Below, one piece after another: positions 58,147 to 64,000 of a stretch of 64,000 bases of DNA. Both the position numbers and the translations under genes were made by a program. Source of the stretch: Variovorax paradoxus (lineage in GTDB: Bacteria; Pseudomonadota; Gammaproteobacteria; Burkholderiales; Burkholderiaceae_C). The stretch lies in the NCBI RefSeq assembly GCF_030815975.1, contig NZ_JAUSXL010000002.1, positions 2,902,501 to 2,966,500 on the forward strand, read 5' to 3'. Every line of letters begins with the position of its first letter. Within the stretch, counting starts at the first letter, position 1. The notes beneath the pieces were generated by a model, which saw nothing but the letters and a program-made list of their open reading frames with translations, did no database searches and was not told where the DNA came from.

Positions 58147-58597
58147 TGCCGGCGCCCGGCAAACCGGGCTGGACCGTGCCGGGACACGATCAGTATCGTT
58201 ACTGAATCTTCCCCACCGCGACATTCCCGCGGCTTCGCGTTCAAATGCCGAGGTGCCCGCCATGCCGGGTTGGCGGCACCCTGCGCCCCGGCCTCCCAAG
58301 GGGAAACCCGGCTCTCGCGCCCCTCTGCATGCCCAATGCAGCCTTTTGTGGTCAATTGCGCGCAATCCGACACCAATGTAGGACTTTATCCCGACCTCGG
58401 TGTTGCTGAGATGTGAATTCGGCACATCTTGTTTCGCTCCGAAGCAGTCCAGATCCGGGTTTCGACGTACCTTCATATTGCACCGCAACATGCGGACGCA
58501 GAGTTCGTGGCTCGGCGTCCGTCGTTGCGGGCGGGTCCTTCAATCTGGATGTCGTGCCGTTCGCTGCGGCGCGACGTGGTTCTCATGAGAGGTGGCT
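58147..58597. other. 450-base gap upstream of the polysaccharide locus
   Basis: No convincing gene. A short hairpin (TGCAT-GCCCA-ATGCA) followed by GCCTTTTGTGG near 58328-58353 may terminate the methyltransferase transcript. The remainder (about 58380-58597) is likely the promoter and leader of the HlyD-like operon. Confidence 0.45.
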
Positions 58598-59899
58598 ATG
58601 CGTGTGTCAAAACCGAGTTCGGTTCTCTTTTCTCAGTGCCAGCGGCGCATCGCTGGTGCCATGGGCGGCCGTGTTCCTGGCGCGGGTTGTCGGCGCCGGC
58701 AGTCGGGCGCCTTCGTCCCCAAGCTGGCGGCCTATGCGCTGCTGGCCTTCGTGCTGTGGCTGATGGTCGCAACCCTGGTGCAGCCGCTGTTGTCTTCGCA
58801 GGCCACCCGCGCCGTCTTGCAGGCGCCGGTGGCGCTGATCACCTCGCCGATCAACGGGGTGGTGTCGCAGATGGTGGTGCATGCGCGCGACAAGGTGGAG
58901 CCGGGCACCATCGTGGCCACGGTGCGCAACCCGACCGTGAGCCAGGAAATCCTCACCACCCTGAGGTCGCAGCACCTGGCGCTGCAGAGCCAGTTGGCCC
59001 AGCTGGGCAACCAGTACAAGTCCGACAACCAGGAAATGAGGTCTGTCGGGCAGGAGGCCGGCGTTCATCGCGAGGCTTCCCTGGCGCAGGCCTGGGAGGC
59101 CTGGCAGATCGCGCGGCGCCAGCGCGATGTGGCGCACAGCATGGTGGAAGAGCAGGAAAACAAGGTCAAGACCAATCAGGCGCTGCTGGAGCAGGGCGCG
59201 ATCAGCGAGCAGGTGATGAACGCCGCTGTGGCGCAGCTGAACACGGCGCGTGCCAATGCCGCGGTGGCGGAACAGTCCTTTGCCGGGCAGGCCCAGACGG
59301 TGGCGAGTGCCGGGCAGGGAGCCTTCGTGGGCACCGGGGGCAGCAACCTGTTCCAGACGCTCGCAAGCCGCCGCGAGGCGCTGCGCAACAGCGTCGGCCG
59401 CGCCCAGCAGGACGCCACCGCCATCTTCAAGCAGCTCAAGGAGGTCAGGGATCTCGAGGACGAGGAACGCCGCCGGGTGGAAAAGCTGTCCTTCTACGAA
59501 ATCAAGGCCTCGCAGGCGGGGCAGGTTCATTCCGTGCTCGCACCCGAAGGCGCGTATGTCACGGCGGGTGCCTCGCTGGTGCGCGTGACCGATTGCAGCC
59601 GGCTCGGCGTGGTGGCGGTGTTTCCTGCGCGGGTGGCCAAGCGGCTGGGCATCGGCTCCGTGCTCGACGTCAAGCTCGCCGAATCCGCCAAGCCGGTGCC
59701 GGCGCGCGTGGAGCAATTGCTGCCGGTGGCCTCGGACGCGCTGCAGAGCACCTACAGCGTGCCGTTCCCGTATGCCGAGCAGGGTTCCATCTATGCCGTG
59801 GCCCGCATCGAAGGCAAGGAACCGCAGGAGGCTCCGCCGGATGGTGGCAGCAACATGTGCGCGCCCGGCAAGGTGGTGTCGGCCAGCCTCAGGTCCTGA
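58598..59899 (+). CDS. HlyD-like membrane-fusion (periplasmic adaptor) protein
   Basis: A 433-residue protein with one N-terminal membrane anchor (~42-65, AAYALLAFVLWLMVATLV), a biotinyl-lipoyl-like half domain (ITSPINGVVSQMVVHARDKVEPGT ~80-103), a long coiled-coil hairpin (~115-280), and a second lipoyl half (KASQAGQVHSVLAPEGAYVTAG) with a beta-barrel segment. This is the layout of efflux adaptors and of adaptors such as Alg44/BgsB-like proteins in polysaccharide export. AGAGG precedes ATG 58598. It is followed by a glycosidase-like gene and the glycosyltransferase-OMF frame, and should bridge them across the periplasm. Confidence 0.9.
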   Translation: MRVSKPSSVLFSQCQRRIAGAMGGRVPGAGCRRRQSGAFVPKLAAYALLAFVLWLMVATLVQPLLSSQATRAVLQAPVALITSPINGVVSQMVVHARDKVEPGTIVATVRNPTVSQEILTTLRSQHLALQSQLAQLGNQYKSDNQEMRSVGQEAGVHREASLAQAWEAWQIARRQRDVAHSMVEEQENKVKTNQALLEQGAISEQVMNAAVAQLNTARANAAVAEQSFAGQAQTVASAGQGAFVGTGGSNLFQTLASRREALRNSVGRAQQDATAIFKQLKEVRDLEDEERRRVEKLSFYEIKASQAGQVHSVLAPEGAYVTAGASLVRVTDCSRLGVVAVFPARVAKRLGIGSVLDVKLAESAKPVPARVEQLLPVASDALQSTYSVPFPYAEQGSIYAVARIEGKEPQEAPPDGGSNMCAPGKVVSASLRS

Positions 59900-59942: not shown

Positions 59943-61289
59943 ATGTCGGTCTTCCCCTTTTCCCGGACCCTGGTGTCCTGCGTTGCCGCACTGGCGGCCT
60001 CGGCCTTGCCGATGTCGGGGGCCTTCGCCCAGCCGTCCGGCCGGCAACCCGGCCCGCAGGCCGGCAGCGCCACGCAGCAAGCGCTTGCACGGCAAAGCTG
60101 CGAAGGGCTGCGGCGGGCGGTTGCGGAGGACCAGAAGGGCGTGGCTTCCGGACCGCTGTTTCTCACCAGCTACCGCCTCGCCGACCCGAAGCAAGGTACG
60201 CCGCTGGAACCCGCGCTGGCGGGCGCCTCCTTCACCTATGACAACGCGCTGGCCGGCATCGCGCTGCTGGCCTGTGGCGACGCGGCCTCGGCCCGGCGCA
60301 TCGGCGACGCGGTGGTGCGCGCGATGGAGCGCGACCCGAACGCGGCCGACGGGCGCGTGCGCAACGCCTACCGCGCCGGCCCGATGACGGAGGAAAAGGC
60401 CGCATTGCCGGGGCGCTGGGATGCGACGAAGAACCAGTGGATCGCCGACGCCTACCAGGTGAGCACGGCCACCGGCAACGTGGCCTGGGCCGCCTTGCTG
60501 CTGCTGAACCTGAACGAGGCCGAGCCGTCGCCCGCCTATCTGGCGGGCGCGCGCCGACTGCTCGGCTGGATCGAGCAGCGCACGCGCGCGCGCAACGCGC
60601 CCGACGGCTACAACGGCGGCTGGTACGGCTGGGACAACGCGCAGCGTGCCCAGACCTGGAAATCTACCGAGCACAACATCGACATCGCGATGGCGGCCGC
60701 CTGGGCGGCGAAGGGCACCGGCACACAGGCCGAGGCCGAGCGCCAGCAGGCGCGCACCGCGCTCGACTTCGTCGGCCGCATGTGGAACGCATCGGAGCAG
60801 CGCTTCAACATCGGCACCAAGGAAGACGGCGCCACCATCGCAACGGATGGCTCCGGCCTGGATGCACAGCTGTGGCCGCTGCTGGCGGCGCCCGAGGGTT
60901 CCTGCCCCTGGATGCGCGGGCTCGACTGGGTGGAGAAGCACCATCGCTTCGGCGAAGGCTACGGCTTCTCGCGCAGCCCCGACGGCATTTGGACCGAGGG
61001 CAGCGCCCAGGCCGCCGCCACGCTGGTGGCGCGCAAGGGCGCGGCACCCGAGGCCCTGTGGCAGCTGCTGGCCTCGCAGCGCGCCGGCAACGGCCTGTAC
61101 TACGCCACCCCCAGTGCCCGCATTTCGACCGGGCTGGCCATCGGCCCGGACTCGTCCGGGGCCGATTTCTTCTACTACCGCTGGCCACACTTGGGCGCGA
61201 CCGCCTGGATCGCGCTGGCCGCCACGGGGTTCAACCCCTTCACCGGCAAGACCGCCGCAACAGGAGCCACACCGCCATGTCCCACCTGA
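59943..61289 (+). CDS. Exported six-hairpin glycosidase-like protein
   Basis: A 448-residue exported protein: signal core TLVSCVAALAASALP with cleavage near AFAQP. The mature part has repeated helical pairs with a Trp/Tyr/Asp/Asn-rich centre (TYDNALAGIALLA ~98, GGWYGWDNAQRAQ ~222, STEHNIDIAMAAAWAA ~240, DGIWTEGSAQAAA ~345), as in alpha/alpha-barrel glycosidases. GH family and catalytic residues cannot be assigned by eye. By analogy with BcsZ in cellulose operons it may trim the nascent glucan in the periplasm. Its end overlaps the glycosyltransferase start by 13 bases. Confidence 0.72.
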   Translation: MSVFPFSRTLVSCVAALAASALPMSGAFAQPSGRQPGPQAGSATQQALARQSCEGLRRAVAEDQKGVASGPLFLTSYRLADPKQGTPLEPALAGASFTYDNALAGIALLACGDAASARRIGDAVVRAMERDPNAADGRVRNAYRAGPMTEEKAALPGRWDATKNQWIADAYQVSTATGNVAWAALLLLNLNEAEPSPAYLAGARRLLGWIEQRTRARNAPDGYNGGWYGWDNAQRAQTWKSTEHNIDIAMAAAWAAKGTGTQAEAERQQARTALDFVGRMWNASEQRFNIGTKEDGATIATDGSGLDAQLWPLLAAPEGSCPWMRGLDWVEKHHRFGEGYGFSRSPDGIWTEGSAQAAATLVARKGAAPEALWQLLASQRAGNGLYYATPSARISTGLAIGPDSSGADFFYYRWPHLGATAWIALAATGFNPFTGKTAATGATPPCPT

Positions 61290-64000
61290 TCGCCACTCCG
61301 GAGTTCCAGCTCAACGCCCTTGTTGCGGGCCTGGCACTCCTCCTGATGACGTGGGGGCGGGTCGACCGCACGTCCCACCGCGTGCTGTTCGGCGCGCTGA
61401 CCGCGCTGCTGCTGATGCGCTATGCCGTCTGGCGCGCGGTTGCCACCATGCCGCCTTCGGACCTCGGCTTCGAGACGCTGTTCGCCTGGGTGTTCCTGTG
61501 CTTCGAGCTGACGGCCATCGTCTACACGCTGATGTCCATCCACATGCTGGTGCGGCGGCGCGACAACCACCATCTGGCCGACCGCGGCGAAGCGGAGCTG
61601 CGGCGCCGCGGCGCGCAGGTGCCGGCGGTGGACGTCTTCATCTGCACGTACAACGAAGAGCTGGCGATCCTCGAAAAGACCATCATCGCCGCACAGGCCA
61701 TCGACTATCCGAACCTGAAGGTATGGGTGCTCGACGACACCCGGCGCGACTGGCTGCGCGAGTATTGCGAGCGCAAGGGCGTGCACTACGCGCGCCGGCC
61801 CGACAACAGCCATGCCAAGGCCGGCAACCTCAACAACGGCCTGCGGCTGTCGGCGGGCGTGACCAATGCGCCCTACATCCTGGTGCTCGATGCCGACTTC
61901 GCGCCGCAGCGGCAGATCGTCTACCGCATGCTGGGCCTGTTCGCGGACCGCAAGGTCGGGCTGGTGCAGACGCCGCAGTTCTATTACAACGCCGACCCCA
62001 TCCAGCACAACCTGCGCGCCACCGACAGCTGGGTGGACGAGCAGCGCGTGTTCTTCGACGTGCTGCAGCCCGCCAAGGATGCGGCCGACTCGGCCTTCTG
62101 CGTGGGCACCTCCTTCATCGTGCGGCGCGACCTGATCACCGCCGCGGGCGGCTTTCCGGTGGGCAGCGTGTGCGAAGACATCCACACCACCTACCTGCTG
62201 CTGCGGCACGGCCACATCACGCGCTGGCTCGGCGAGCGGCTGTCCAACGGCCTGTCGGCCGAGAGCATCATCGACTACATCAACCAGCGCAGCCGCTGGT
62301 GCCTGGGAACGGTGCAGCTCGCGCTGCTGCCCGACGGCCCGCTGCGCGGCCGCGGCTTCAGCTTCTCGGCGCGGATGCACTTCCTGCACGGGCTGCTGCA
62401 CTGGCTCGGCAAGCCGTTCATGGCCATGATCATGCTGGCGCCCGCGCTCTACTGGTATGCCGGGGTCTCGGTGTTCCATGCCACGCCGCAGGCTTTTGCT
62501 TCCTTCGGGCTGCCGCCGCTCATGATGTTCTGGGCCTACAGCTACTGGATCAGCCAGCGGCGCTGCCTGCCCGTGTTCAGCGAGGTGAGCCAGCTGGTGG
62601 CCGCCATGGCCGTCACCAGCACGCTGGCCAGCGCCTTGCTGCGGCCGTTCGGGCGGCCCTTCAAGGTCACGGCCAAGGGGCTGGACCGCACCAAGACCGT
62701 GGTGCACTGGAAGCTGGTCGCGATGTTCGGTGGGCTGCTTGTGGCGCTGCAGTGCGGCGGCGCGTCGGTCGCGCTGAGCGGCGAAGCGCTCACGCCCGGC
62801 GACCAGCTCAATCTGGTGTGGACCGGCATTGCGCTCATCCTCTGCCTGGCCGCGCTCATCGCCTGCGTCGACCTGCCGCGGCCGGAGCAGGAGGAACGCT
62901 TTCCCTGGCGCGCGCGCACCCGGGTGCGCACCGCGGCAGGCGAGGGCGAGGCGCGCTTCGTCAACATTGCGGCCGACGGCGCCCTGCTGGAAGCCAAGGC
63001 CCCGCTGAAACGCCTGCGCGTGGGACAGCCGCTGGAGGTCTACGTCGATCCGGTGGGATGGCTCCCGGCCCGCCTTGCCGGCAGAAGCTCCGCGGGCGCC
63101 GAGCTTCGCTTCGCCGGCACCGAGGCCCAGCGCGAGCAATTGGTGGGCCACGTGTTCAACGTGCCGCCGAGCCACGTCGCGGTTCAGGTGCGGCCATGGA
63201 AAGCCGCCTCGGCCTTGCTGGCGAGCGCGGGTTTCGGGTCTCCCGGGGCGGGCTTCGTGCGCCTCGCCCTGCGGCTGCTGCTGCTGGTGCTGGCAACCTG
63301 CGTGGTGCTGGTGGTGAGCGGATGCAACCTCACGCCGCCGCTCAAGCAGCCCGACCTCACGGTGCCTTCGCAATGGCCGGCCGGCACCATGGCGCCGAAC
63401 GCGGAACCCGTCGACTGGCGCAGCTTTGTGCAGGACGACGAACTGCGCGGGCTGATCACGACCGCCCTCGCGCAGAACCGCGACCTGCGCGCCTATGCCG
63501 CGCGTGCCCGCGAAGCCCGCGCCGTGTATGCCGGCAGCCGCGCCTCGCTGTTCCCGCAGATCGGCGTGTCGGGCCATGCCCAGCGGGCGCAGACCACCAC
63601 GCAAGGATCGCTCAGCCCGCTCGGCAACGTGCCATCCGACGGCCGGGTTTCGAACAGCTTCGACATCCAGGCCGGCGTCACGTCGTACGAGCTCGACTTC
63701 TTCGGCCGCCAGCAGAGCGCGACCCAGCAAGCCGGCTCGCTGGCCGAGGCCGGCAACAAGGACTTTGCGGCTGCGCACATGAACCTGGTGGGAGAGGTGA
63801 CGAATGCCTACCTCACGCTGCGCGCCGACCGCGCCTTGCTCGCGCTGGCCAATGCCAACGAGTCCGGCCTGGCCGCCAATGCCGACATGATCGGACGCGC
63901 CAAGGCGGTGGGCGGCGCGGCACAGCTGGACGTCTACCGCGCGCAGTCGCTGCTGCAGAACGCCCGCGTGAAGCAGGAGGAATTCCGCATGCGCGTCGCC
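61277..64000 (+). CDS. Cellulose-synthase-like GT2 glycosyltransferase with PilZ-like domain, fused in frame to a NodT-type outer-membrane efflux lipoprotein (partial, runs off the end)
   Basis: An uninterrupted frame of 908 codons to the window edge. Residues ~10-85 hold three membrane helices. The GT2 domain has VLDDT (Asp153/154), DAD (205-207), CED (299-301) and QRSRW (337-341), the processive BcsA-type D, DxD, ED and QxxRW set. Membrane helices follow (~386-410, 470-490, 515-532), then a PilZ-like c-di-GMP domain (~541-640; RTRVR and NIAADG). Residues 661-683 form a lipoprotein-like signal ending in lipobox VSGC, and from 684 on the sequence is a NodT/TolC-family outer-membrane factor (LKQPDLTVPSQW, YELDFFGRQQ, NAYLTLRADRALL). 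AGGAG precedes ATG 61277. I checked every codon across the junction and found no stop. Confidence 0.85.
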   Translation, partial: MSHLIATPEFQLNALVAGLALLLMTWGRVDRTSHRVLFGALTALLLMRYAVWRAVATMPPSDLGFETLFAWVFLCFELTAIVYTLMSIHMLVRRRDNHHLADRGEAELRRRGAQVPAVDVFICTYNEELAILEKTIIAAQAIDYPNLKVWVLDDTRRDWLREYCERKGVHYARRPDNSHAKAGNLNNGLRLSAGVTNAPYILVLDADFAPQRQIVYRMLGLFADRKVGLVQTPQFYYNADPIQHNLRATDSWVDEQRVFFDVLQPAKDAADSAFCVGTSFIVRRDLITAAGGFPVGSVCEDIHTTYLLLRHGHITRWLGERLSNGLSAESIIDYINQRSRWCLGTVQLALLPDGPLRGRGFSFSARMHFLHGLLHWLGKPFMAMIMLAPALYWYAGVSVFHATPQAFASFGLPPLMMFWAYSYWISQRRCLPVFSEVSQLVAAMAVTSTLASALLRPFGRPFKVTAKGLDRTKTVVHWKLVAMFGGLLVALQCGGASVALSGEALTPGDQLNLVWTGIALILCLAALIACVDLPRPEQEERFPWRARTRVRTAAGEGEARFVNIAADGALLEAKAPLKRLRVGQPLEVYVDPVGWLPARLAGRSSAGAELRFAGTEAQREQLVGHVFNVPPSHVAVQVRPWKAASALLASAGFGSPGAGFVRLALRLLLLVLATCVVLVVSGCNLTPPLKQPDLTVPSQWPAGTMAPNAEPVDWRSFVQDDELRGLITTALAQNRDLRAYAARAREARAVYAGSRASLFPQIGVSGHAQRAQTTTQGSLSPLGNVPSDGRVSNSFDIQAGVTSYELDFFGRQQSATQQAGSLAEAGNKDFAAAHMNLVGEVTNAYLTLRADRALLALANANESGLAANADMIGRAKAVGGAAQLDVYRAQSLLQNARVKQEEFRMRVA
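63257..64000 (+). other. NodT-type outer-membrane lipoprotein region with internal GTG start
   Basis: GTG 63257 begins VRLALRLLLLVLATC, followed by VVLVVSGC with the lipobox Cys at 63323. This is a standard lipoprotein signal of a TolC-like outer-membrane channel, in the same frame as the upstream glycosyltransferase. Either translation also starts here, or lipoprotein signal peptidase cuts the long protein before this Cys. Only a weak GGGGCGGG stretch precedes the GTG. The remaining C-terminus lies beyond the window. Confidence 0.6.

Follow-up and report, generated by a model that had tools for sequence, protein, structure and literature searches.

Introduction

To our knowledge, polyproteins are rare in bacteria. 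One example is the Bradyrhizobium cytochrome b/c1 precursor FbcH, a polyprotein in which a multi-span membrane protein is joined to an exported protein via an internal signal peptide; signal peptidase I cleaves it, and its two products stay together in one inner-membrane complex. In cellulose synthesis, the BcsB subunit belongs to an inner-membrane complex. A cellulose synthase in which BcsA and BcsB are fused has been described (PMC4443731), and for cyanobacteria a cellulose export model has been put forward that consists of XcsA, XcsB and TolC (Maeda et al. 2018, as presented in the review PMC12430437). The same review calls this model unconfirmed and describes its parts as not being encoded in one operon.

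Here we analyze a gene of Variovorax paradoxus that lies in a 64,000-nucleotide stretch of DNA (contig positions 2902501-2966500; hereafter, the window) and joins a cellulose-synthase-like glycosyltransferase in frame to an outer-membrane factor (OMF). In the literature that we searched (titles and abstract openings of the papers listed, with subscription papers and preprints sparsely represented), we found neither a synthase-OMF fusion nor a polyprotein cut by LspA.

Results

One open frame encodes a GT2 synthase, a PilZ domain and an outer-membrane factor

An earlier note on this DNA, made from the sequence alone, had described a GT2-PilZ frame that continues into NodT-like sequence with no intervening stop codon, and this reading was borne out. 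The frame starts at an ATG at 61277, stays open to the end of the window and stops in the host genome at 64682-64684 (window numbering), giving a chain of 1135 amino acids. A cellulose-synthase-like GT2 domain is followed in this chain by a weak PilZ domain and then by a complete NodT/OprM-type OMF; the part of the OMF inside the window is incomplete, and the remainder lies past the window edge. The features of the gene and of its upstream neighbors are as follows.

58592..59899 (start approximate), + strand: HlyD/RND-type periplasmic adaptor (membrane fusion protein); Pfam HlyD_3, 42.8 bits
59943..61289, + strand: probably exported protein, possibly a glycan-active alpha/alpha-barrel; chosen start, export judged by eye from the N-terminus
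61262..61266, + strand: Shine-Dalgarno-like AGGAG of the fused gene, 10 bases upstream of its start; read from the sequence
61277..62887, + strand: fused gene, part 1, cellulose-synthase-like GT2 domain with transmembrane helices (residues 1-537); profiles and motifs
62888..63157, + strand: degenerate PilZ domain (residues 538-627); Pfam, 23.2 bits against a gathering cut-off of 22.5
63158..63244, + strand: conserved tail at the synthase C-terminus (residues 628-656), homologous to the C-terminal end of unfused synthases
63245..63322, + strand: internal lipoprotein signal peptide (residues 657-682), a hydrophobic helix with lipobox VSG|C
63323..64000, + strand, continuing to the stop at 64682-64684 outside the window: OMF (NodT/OprM type) from the lipidation Cys683; outer_NodT, 293.7 bits

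Pfam and NCBIfam profiles upheld the GT2, PilZ and NodT identities that the note had read from visible motifs, PilZ marginally. The GT2 match covers residues 120-287 of the fused protein. Residues 677-1129 match outer_NodT (TIGR01845) above its curated cut-off of 210.05 bits, and a CelA-like match over residues 12-573 reaches 347.7 bits, below the curated cut-off of 699.1 (BcsA, TIGR03030). Though the TIGR03030 cut-off is missed, the catalytic motifs and gating loop of BcsA are present. D153-D154, DAD205-207, E300-D301 and QxxRW 337-341, which we take to be the catalytic LDD, DAD, ED and QxxRW motifs, and FKVTxKG 462-468, presumably the gating loop, are invariant in all 26 aligned fusions. Across these 26 sequences the mean majority identity is 0.85 for the synthase and 0.82 for the OMF, so that both halves are conserved.

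The fused gene is the sole strong match to the CelA-like profile in the host genome, in which no match to BcsB (PF03170) or BcsC (PF05420) was found at E 0.001. Going by the type of synthase, the polymer is likely a beta-glucan. Because neither BcsB nor BcsC was matched and this is the only strong CelA-like gene, the adaptor and the fused OMF would be its natural export route.

No stretch of the PilZ region on its own falls under E 0.001. Its DxSxxG motif is replaced by NxAxDG in the window, and the five Variovorax sequences listed carry NxAxDG, ExAxDG or QxAxDG; DxSxxG is kept in the 16 other sequences listed, among them both of the Pseudomonas fusions described below. DxSxxG is the motif of PilZ c-di-GMP receptors, and since it is lost in the Variovorax sequences, c-di-GMP control of the fused synthase may be altered.

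The fused frame is maintained across Variovorax

Using a query made of the synthase only, which is not biased towards fusions, we found the fusion in 34 of 101 Variovorax genomes, host genome counted, for a total of 35 copies. In every copy the synthase frame reaches the OMF lipobox. The recurrence of the fusion in these genomes and the preservation of its frame in 35/35 copies show that the fused frame is genuine, and not the result of chance or sequencing error. Linker length changed at least five times among the 35 genome copies, each time by a multiple of three, an outcome with a probability of about 0.004 were none of the changes constrained to keep the frame. (In this set, loci L015, L017 and L054 come from other scans; L054 stands for the G110 copy, with which its coordinates agree.) The linkers of database proteins show at least seven length changes; because those proteins were retrieved with a junction query, that version of the test is biased, and we prefer the figure from the genome set.

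The frame could also be an artefact or a decaying gene, owing to a missed stop, an assembly error or pseudogenization. In favor of this, one of the 35 copies (G024, locus L152) carries a frameshift inside the OMF half, from either gene decay or a sequencing error, and both Pseudomonas fusions come from single strains. However, the fusion recurs across many assemblies with both halves conserved, which already contradicts this explanation for Variovorax, and we consider it exceedingly improbable. Locus L143 runs off its contig within the OMF. Genome G087 holds two diverged fused copies (C10 and C2), with 88% and 73% identity to the window synthase.

The earlier note had called for a database search with the junction. 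This search recovered the same fusion: with 8000 candidates scored, at least 42 database proteins matched, 40 of which have both GT2 and OEP domains. A source organism is shown for eight of the junction-matched proteins among the matches listed, seven from Variovorax and one from a Ramlibacter metagenome assembly, and the fusion can be traced among many assemblies down to about 55% junction identity. A fused database protein of 1040 residues (P0042) has lost most of its PilZ region and keeps the helix and lipobox. Where fused proteins are named among the matches listed, they are called cellulose synthase or efflux transporter; either label conceals half of the protein, which matters to annotators.

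Outside Variovorax, synthase and OMF are mostly separate genes

A scan of named genomes confirmed 243 places, of which the best 80 were analyzed. Within these 80, the loci closest to the window gene are from Variovorax, at 96% protein identity; the fusion is seen in 18 Variovorax and two Pseudomonas loci. The other 60 have separate genes; among these, L107 is truncated by its contig and L114 has an interrupted synthase frame. The earlier note had held that close relatives consistently encoding two separate proteins would speak against the fusion. Within Variovorax the opposite holds, since all 35 copies are fused, whereas separation is the rule in farther relatives: outside Variovorax, 60 of the 62 named loci among the best 80 of 243 consist of two neighboring genes of one operon. 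In 18 of the 20 separate loci listed, the OMF start lies at most 50 bases from the synthase stop, with longer gaps in L102 and L103; two of the 20, L102 and L108, have no proper OMF signal peptide by pattern.

The synthase is sparsely distributed at higher ranks. With at most three candidates scored per genome, it was found in 2 of 399 genomes of a same-family sample, both Variovorax, and in 3 of 399 genomes of a same-order sample, two of them Variovorax and the third with a 770-residue frame. In a synthase tree of 79 rows, from which L107 and L114 were left out, the window synthase sits within the Variovorax clade, and strongly supported branches require the fusion state to change three times. 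The simplest reading is one gain of the fusion for Variovorax and one each for the Pseudomonas loci L060 and L063. When the tree is midpoint-rooted, Variovorax groups with Rhodanobacteraceae with moderate support (90/82). Together with the patchy presence in the family and order samples, this grouping suggests that the synthase gene was acquired by horizontal transfer.

The two Pseudomonas fusions have separate origins on the tree, each in one strain, and both keep the lipobox. Compared with its unfused relative L061, L060 lacks the stretch with the synthase stop codon and the start of the OMF. When its junction was used to search the database, six proteins of 697-716 amino acids matched, none of them fused, and among 398 Pseudomonas genomes sampled, 18 have the synthase, with a fusion-length frame only in the query genome. 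We considered these fusions as a sign of a common habit and set that idea aside, given that they are single strains and that only 1 of the 18 synthase-bearing genomes has a fusion-length frame.

The fused gene lies in a conserved operon with an adaptor and a probably exported protein

The operon has a conserved order of HlyD-type adaptor, probably exported protein, GT2-PilZ synthase and OMF. Among the best 80 of the 243 loci, the adaptor is upstream in 78, and the two misses (L107 and L118) begin inside the operon; the exported protein is present in all 80. These loci thus bring together the parts of a tripartite glucan exporter, namely a GT2 synthase, an HlyD-type adaptor (78/80) and a channel that adjoins the synthase or is fused to it.

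The gene for the probably exported protein overlaps the synthase start by 13 bases. At least 1902 relatives were found among 8000 scored candidates; among the matches listed they are mostly named 'hypothetical protein', and some 'methylaspartate ammonia-lyase'. The window copy has no Pfam family match, and 8 of 33 aligned members show weak GH127-type matches. A search of solved structures with the single sequence returned none above chance, and a profile search gave an alpha-1,6-mannanase as its best match (E 0.097); the protein also weakly resembles a C5-epimerase. With respect to an endoglucanase in the operon, this protein shows weak glycosidase-like matches and no family match.

The junction contains an internal lipoprotein signal peptide

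At the junction, a complete synthase C-terminus, as in the separate relatives, is followed by a short linker, a hydrophobic helix and a lipobox. Gly682-Cys683 is invariant in 26/26 aligned fusions, with a mean majority identity of 52% in the linker and 53% in the preceding helix. Cys683 aligns with residue 1 of six mature OMFs (three OprM sequences, OprJ, CusC and MtrE). Unlike usual NodT proteins, the OMF has no N-terminal signal peptide of its own gene; its signal is internal, at residues 657-682 of the fused frame. The residue at +2 after the lipobox Cys is Asn or Ser in all 26 and never Asp, which at this position retains lipoproteins in the inner membrane. An LspA gene is present in the host genome. 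What the sequence holds, then, is one frame for two proteins with an internal signal peptide and a cleavage motif, as in a polyprotein processed by a signal peptidase. With an intact lipoprotein signal peptide at the junction and Cys683 at the position of mature OprM residue 1, the chain is expected to be cut there into two proteins.

We compared the helix before the Cys with those of unfused proteins, counting identical junctions once. The best 14-residue Kyte-Doolittle mean is 2.79-3.73 in 26 distinct Variovorax fusions, and overlaps neither the 1.27-2.41 of 49 separate orthologues nor the 1.47-2.54 of 26 of 28 other NodT proteins with a lipobox (control loci from the host genome and its relatives, two of which gave no match). 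Given the shared origin of the Variovorax fusions, their shift represents one evolutionary event. In the Pseudomonas fusions the shift is slight: their values are 2.05 and 2.56, while 21 unfused relatives reach 2.02 at most, and the insertion energies overlap. A crude 19-residue insertion energy ranges from -2.6 to 1.3 in the fused proteins, against 3.0-11.9 in the orthologues and 1.9-13.5 in the other NodT proteins; since the signals of separate genes are often shorter than 19 residues, so that bases before the start are included, this measure is unfair to them, and we rely on the 14-residue hydropathy. L099, L107 and L116 (no lipobox by pattern) and L114 (interrupted synthase frame) were left out of the hydropathy and insertion-energy comparisons and of the start-pairing comparison below. 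The high hydrophobicity fits a helix that starts OMF export after a large cytosolic domain, and not a normal N-terminal signal.

The junction helix ranks first among the eight membrane-segment candidates in the fused chain and is as hydrophobic as an anchor, so that it could instead be an uncut anchor. In that case a single uncleaved chain would span from its inner-membrane anchor to the OMF barrel in the outer membrane, physically tying the synthase to its exit. The invariant lipobox argues against such a bridge, as does the short distance of about 40 residues from Cys683 to residue 726, where the OEP match is first seen; moreover, OprM-type OMFs are lipid-anchored at the outer membrane by their N-terminus. 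We judge an uncut bridge to be very unlikely. The earlier note had suggested that the fusion could tie glucan synthesis to export within a single polypeptide: the link between synthesis and export is plausible, whereas the intact lipoprotein signal peptide at the junction makes a single working chain that reaches from cytosol to outer membrane unlikely.

Alternatively, translation starting inside the frame, right ahead of the signal peptide as in the separate genes (GTG 63257 in the window), could supply most of the OMF, leaving the read-through chain as a by-product or simply the source of the synthase. Of 29 distinct fused junctions, 16, among them that of the window, have an ATG or GTG at a distance of 22 codons upstream of the Cys, and the best candidate start pairs with the 16S tail at a median of -5.5 kcal/mol in 35 fused junctions compared with -3.7 in 55 unfused genes (background, -2.4), so that by this measure the fused candidates pair better than the starts of unfused genes. 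However, the position of this start is not conserved: neither codon stands at -22 in the other 13 junctions, and in L015 the stretch from -40 to -14 is free of ATG, GTG and TTG, with just an ATG at -41. Internal initiation should also tolerate stops or frame breaks in the linker, which 0 of 35 copies show, and the hydrophobicity of the fused helix exceeds that of all 75 NodT signal peptides in the comparison. Even if used, an internal start would add free OMF without abolishing the fused chain, because ribosomes reading the synthase meet no stop. We therefore regard internal initiation as unlikely to be the main source of the OMF. In all 55 unfused genes, the best-scoring candidate start is an ATG 17-38 codons before the Cys. 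Shine-Dalgarno pairing failed as a discriminator between fused and unfused genes, the latter often having weak sites.

Discussion

A predicted polyprotein cut by LspA

We propose that the fused gene probably encodes a polyprotein: the chain would enter the inner membrane, receive its lipid from Lgt and be split by LspA into a synthase and an outer-membrane channel. Ribosomes starting at 61277 would read synthase, PilZ domain and OMF as one chain, as the absence of a stop codon in the sequence indicates, and the synthase part would insert into the inner membrane. Judging from its hydrophobicity, the internal signal peptide (residues about 657-682), which follows the cytosolic PilZ domain, would insert as an extra helix and carry the OMF into the periplasm. 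The intact, invariant lipobox suggests that Lgt would then lipidate Cys683 and LspA would cut before it. With Asn or Ser rather than Asp at +2, the released OMF would go to the outer membrane, and the synthase would retain the former signal peptide as a C-terminal helix tying the PilZ domain to the membrane. Adaptor, exported protein, synthase and OMF would form a synthase-adaptor-channel route by which a beta-glucan-like polymer is made and exported, and the fusion would yield synthase and channel together, in linked amounts.

In a variant of this scheme, LspA would cut slowly or under regulation. Some molecules would then remain as one chain reaching from cytosol to periplasm and would bring the synthase to its own adaptor and channel ahead of OMF release. 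We hold this to be improbable, but if true, LspA processing would be an assembly step of a synthase-channel machine; we found no such role for LspA in the titles and abstract openings of the papers listed.

Comparison with known systems

As the review presents it, the cyanobacterial XcsAB-TolC model shares with the Variovorax locus a GT2 synthase with PilZ, an HlyD-like adaptor, a further operon protein, a TolC-like exit and the absence of BcsB. In the same account, the further operon protein is an endoglucanase and TolC is encoded outside the operon, whereas in Variovorax the corresponding protein is not a recognized endoglucanase, and the channel is an OprM-type lipoprotein whose gene lies in the operon and is joined to that of the synthase. 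The fusion is genetic evidence that this GT2 synthase works with the OMF to which it is fused, and supports a synthase-adaptor-channel route of export.

Like the BcsA-BcsB fusion, as its source describes it, the Variovorax gene joins the catalytic subunit of a synthase in frame to another subunit of what would be its own complex. Unlike in that fusion, the partner is an outer-membrane lipoprotein channel, in a genome with no BcsB match. NodT, OprM and CusC share with the fused OMF the whole mature protein and the lipidation Cys, but are normally made from independent genes with their own N-terminal signal peptides, where the Variovorax OMF is fused and its signal internal. In contrast to FbcH, the chain would be cleaved at a lipobox by LspA, with products bound for different membranes. 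If the chain is cut as we propose, the lipoprotein pathway would turn out to accept more than it is known to: a polyprotein with an internal LspA site and with halves destined for separate membranes.
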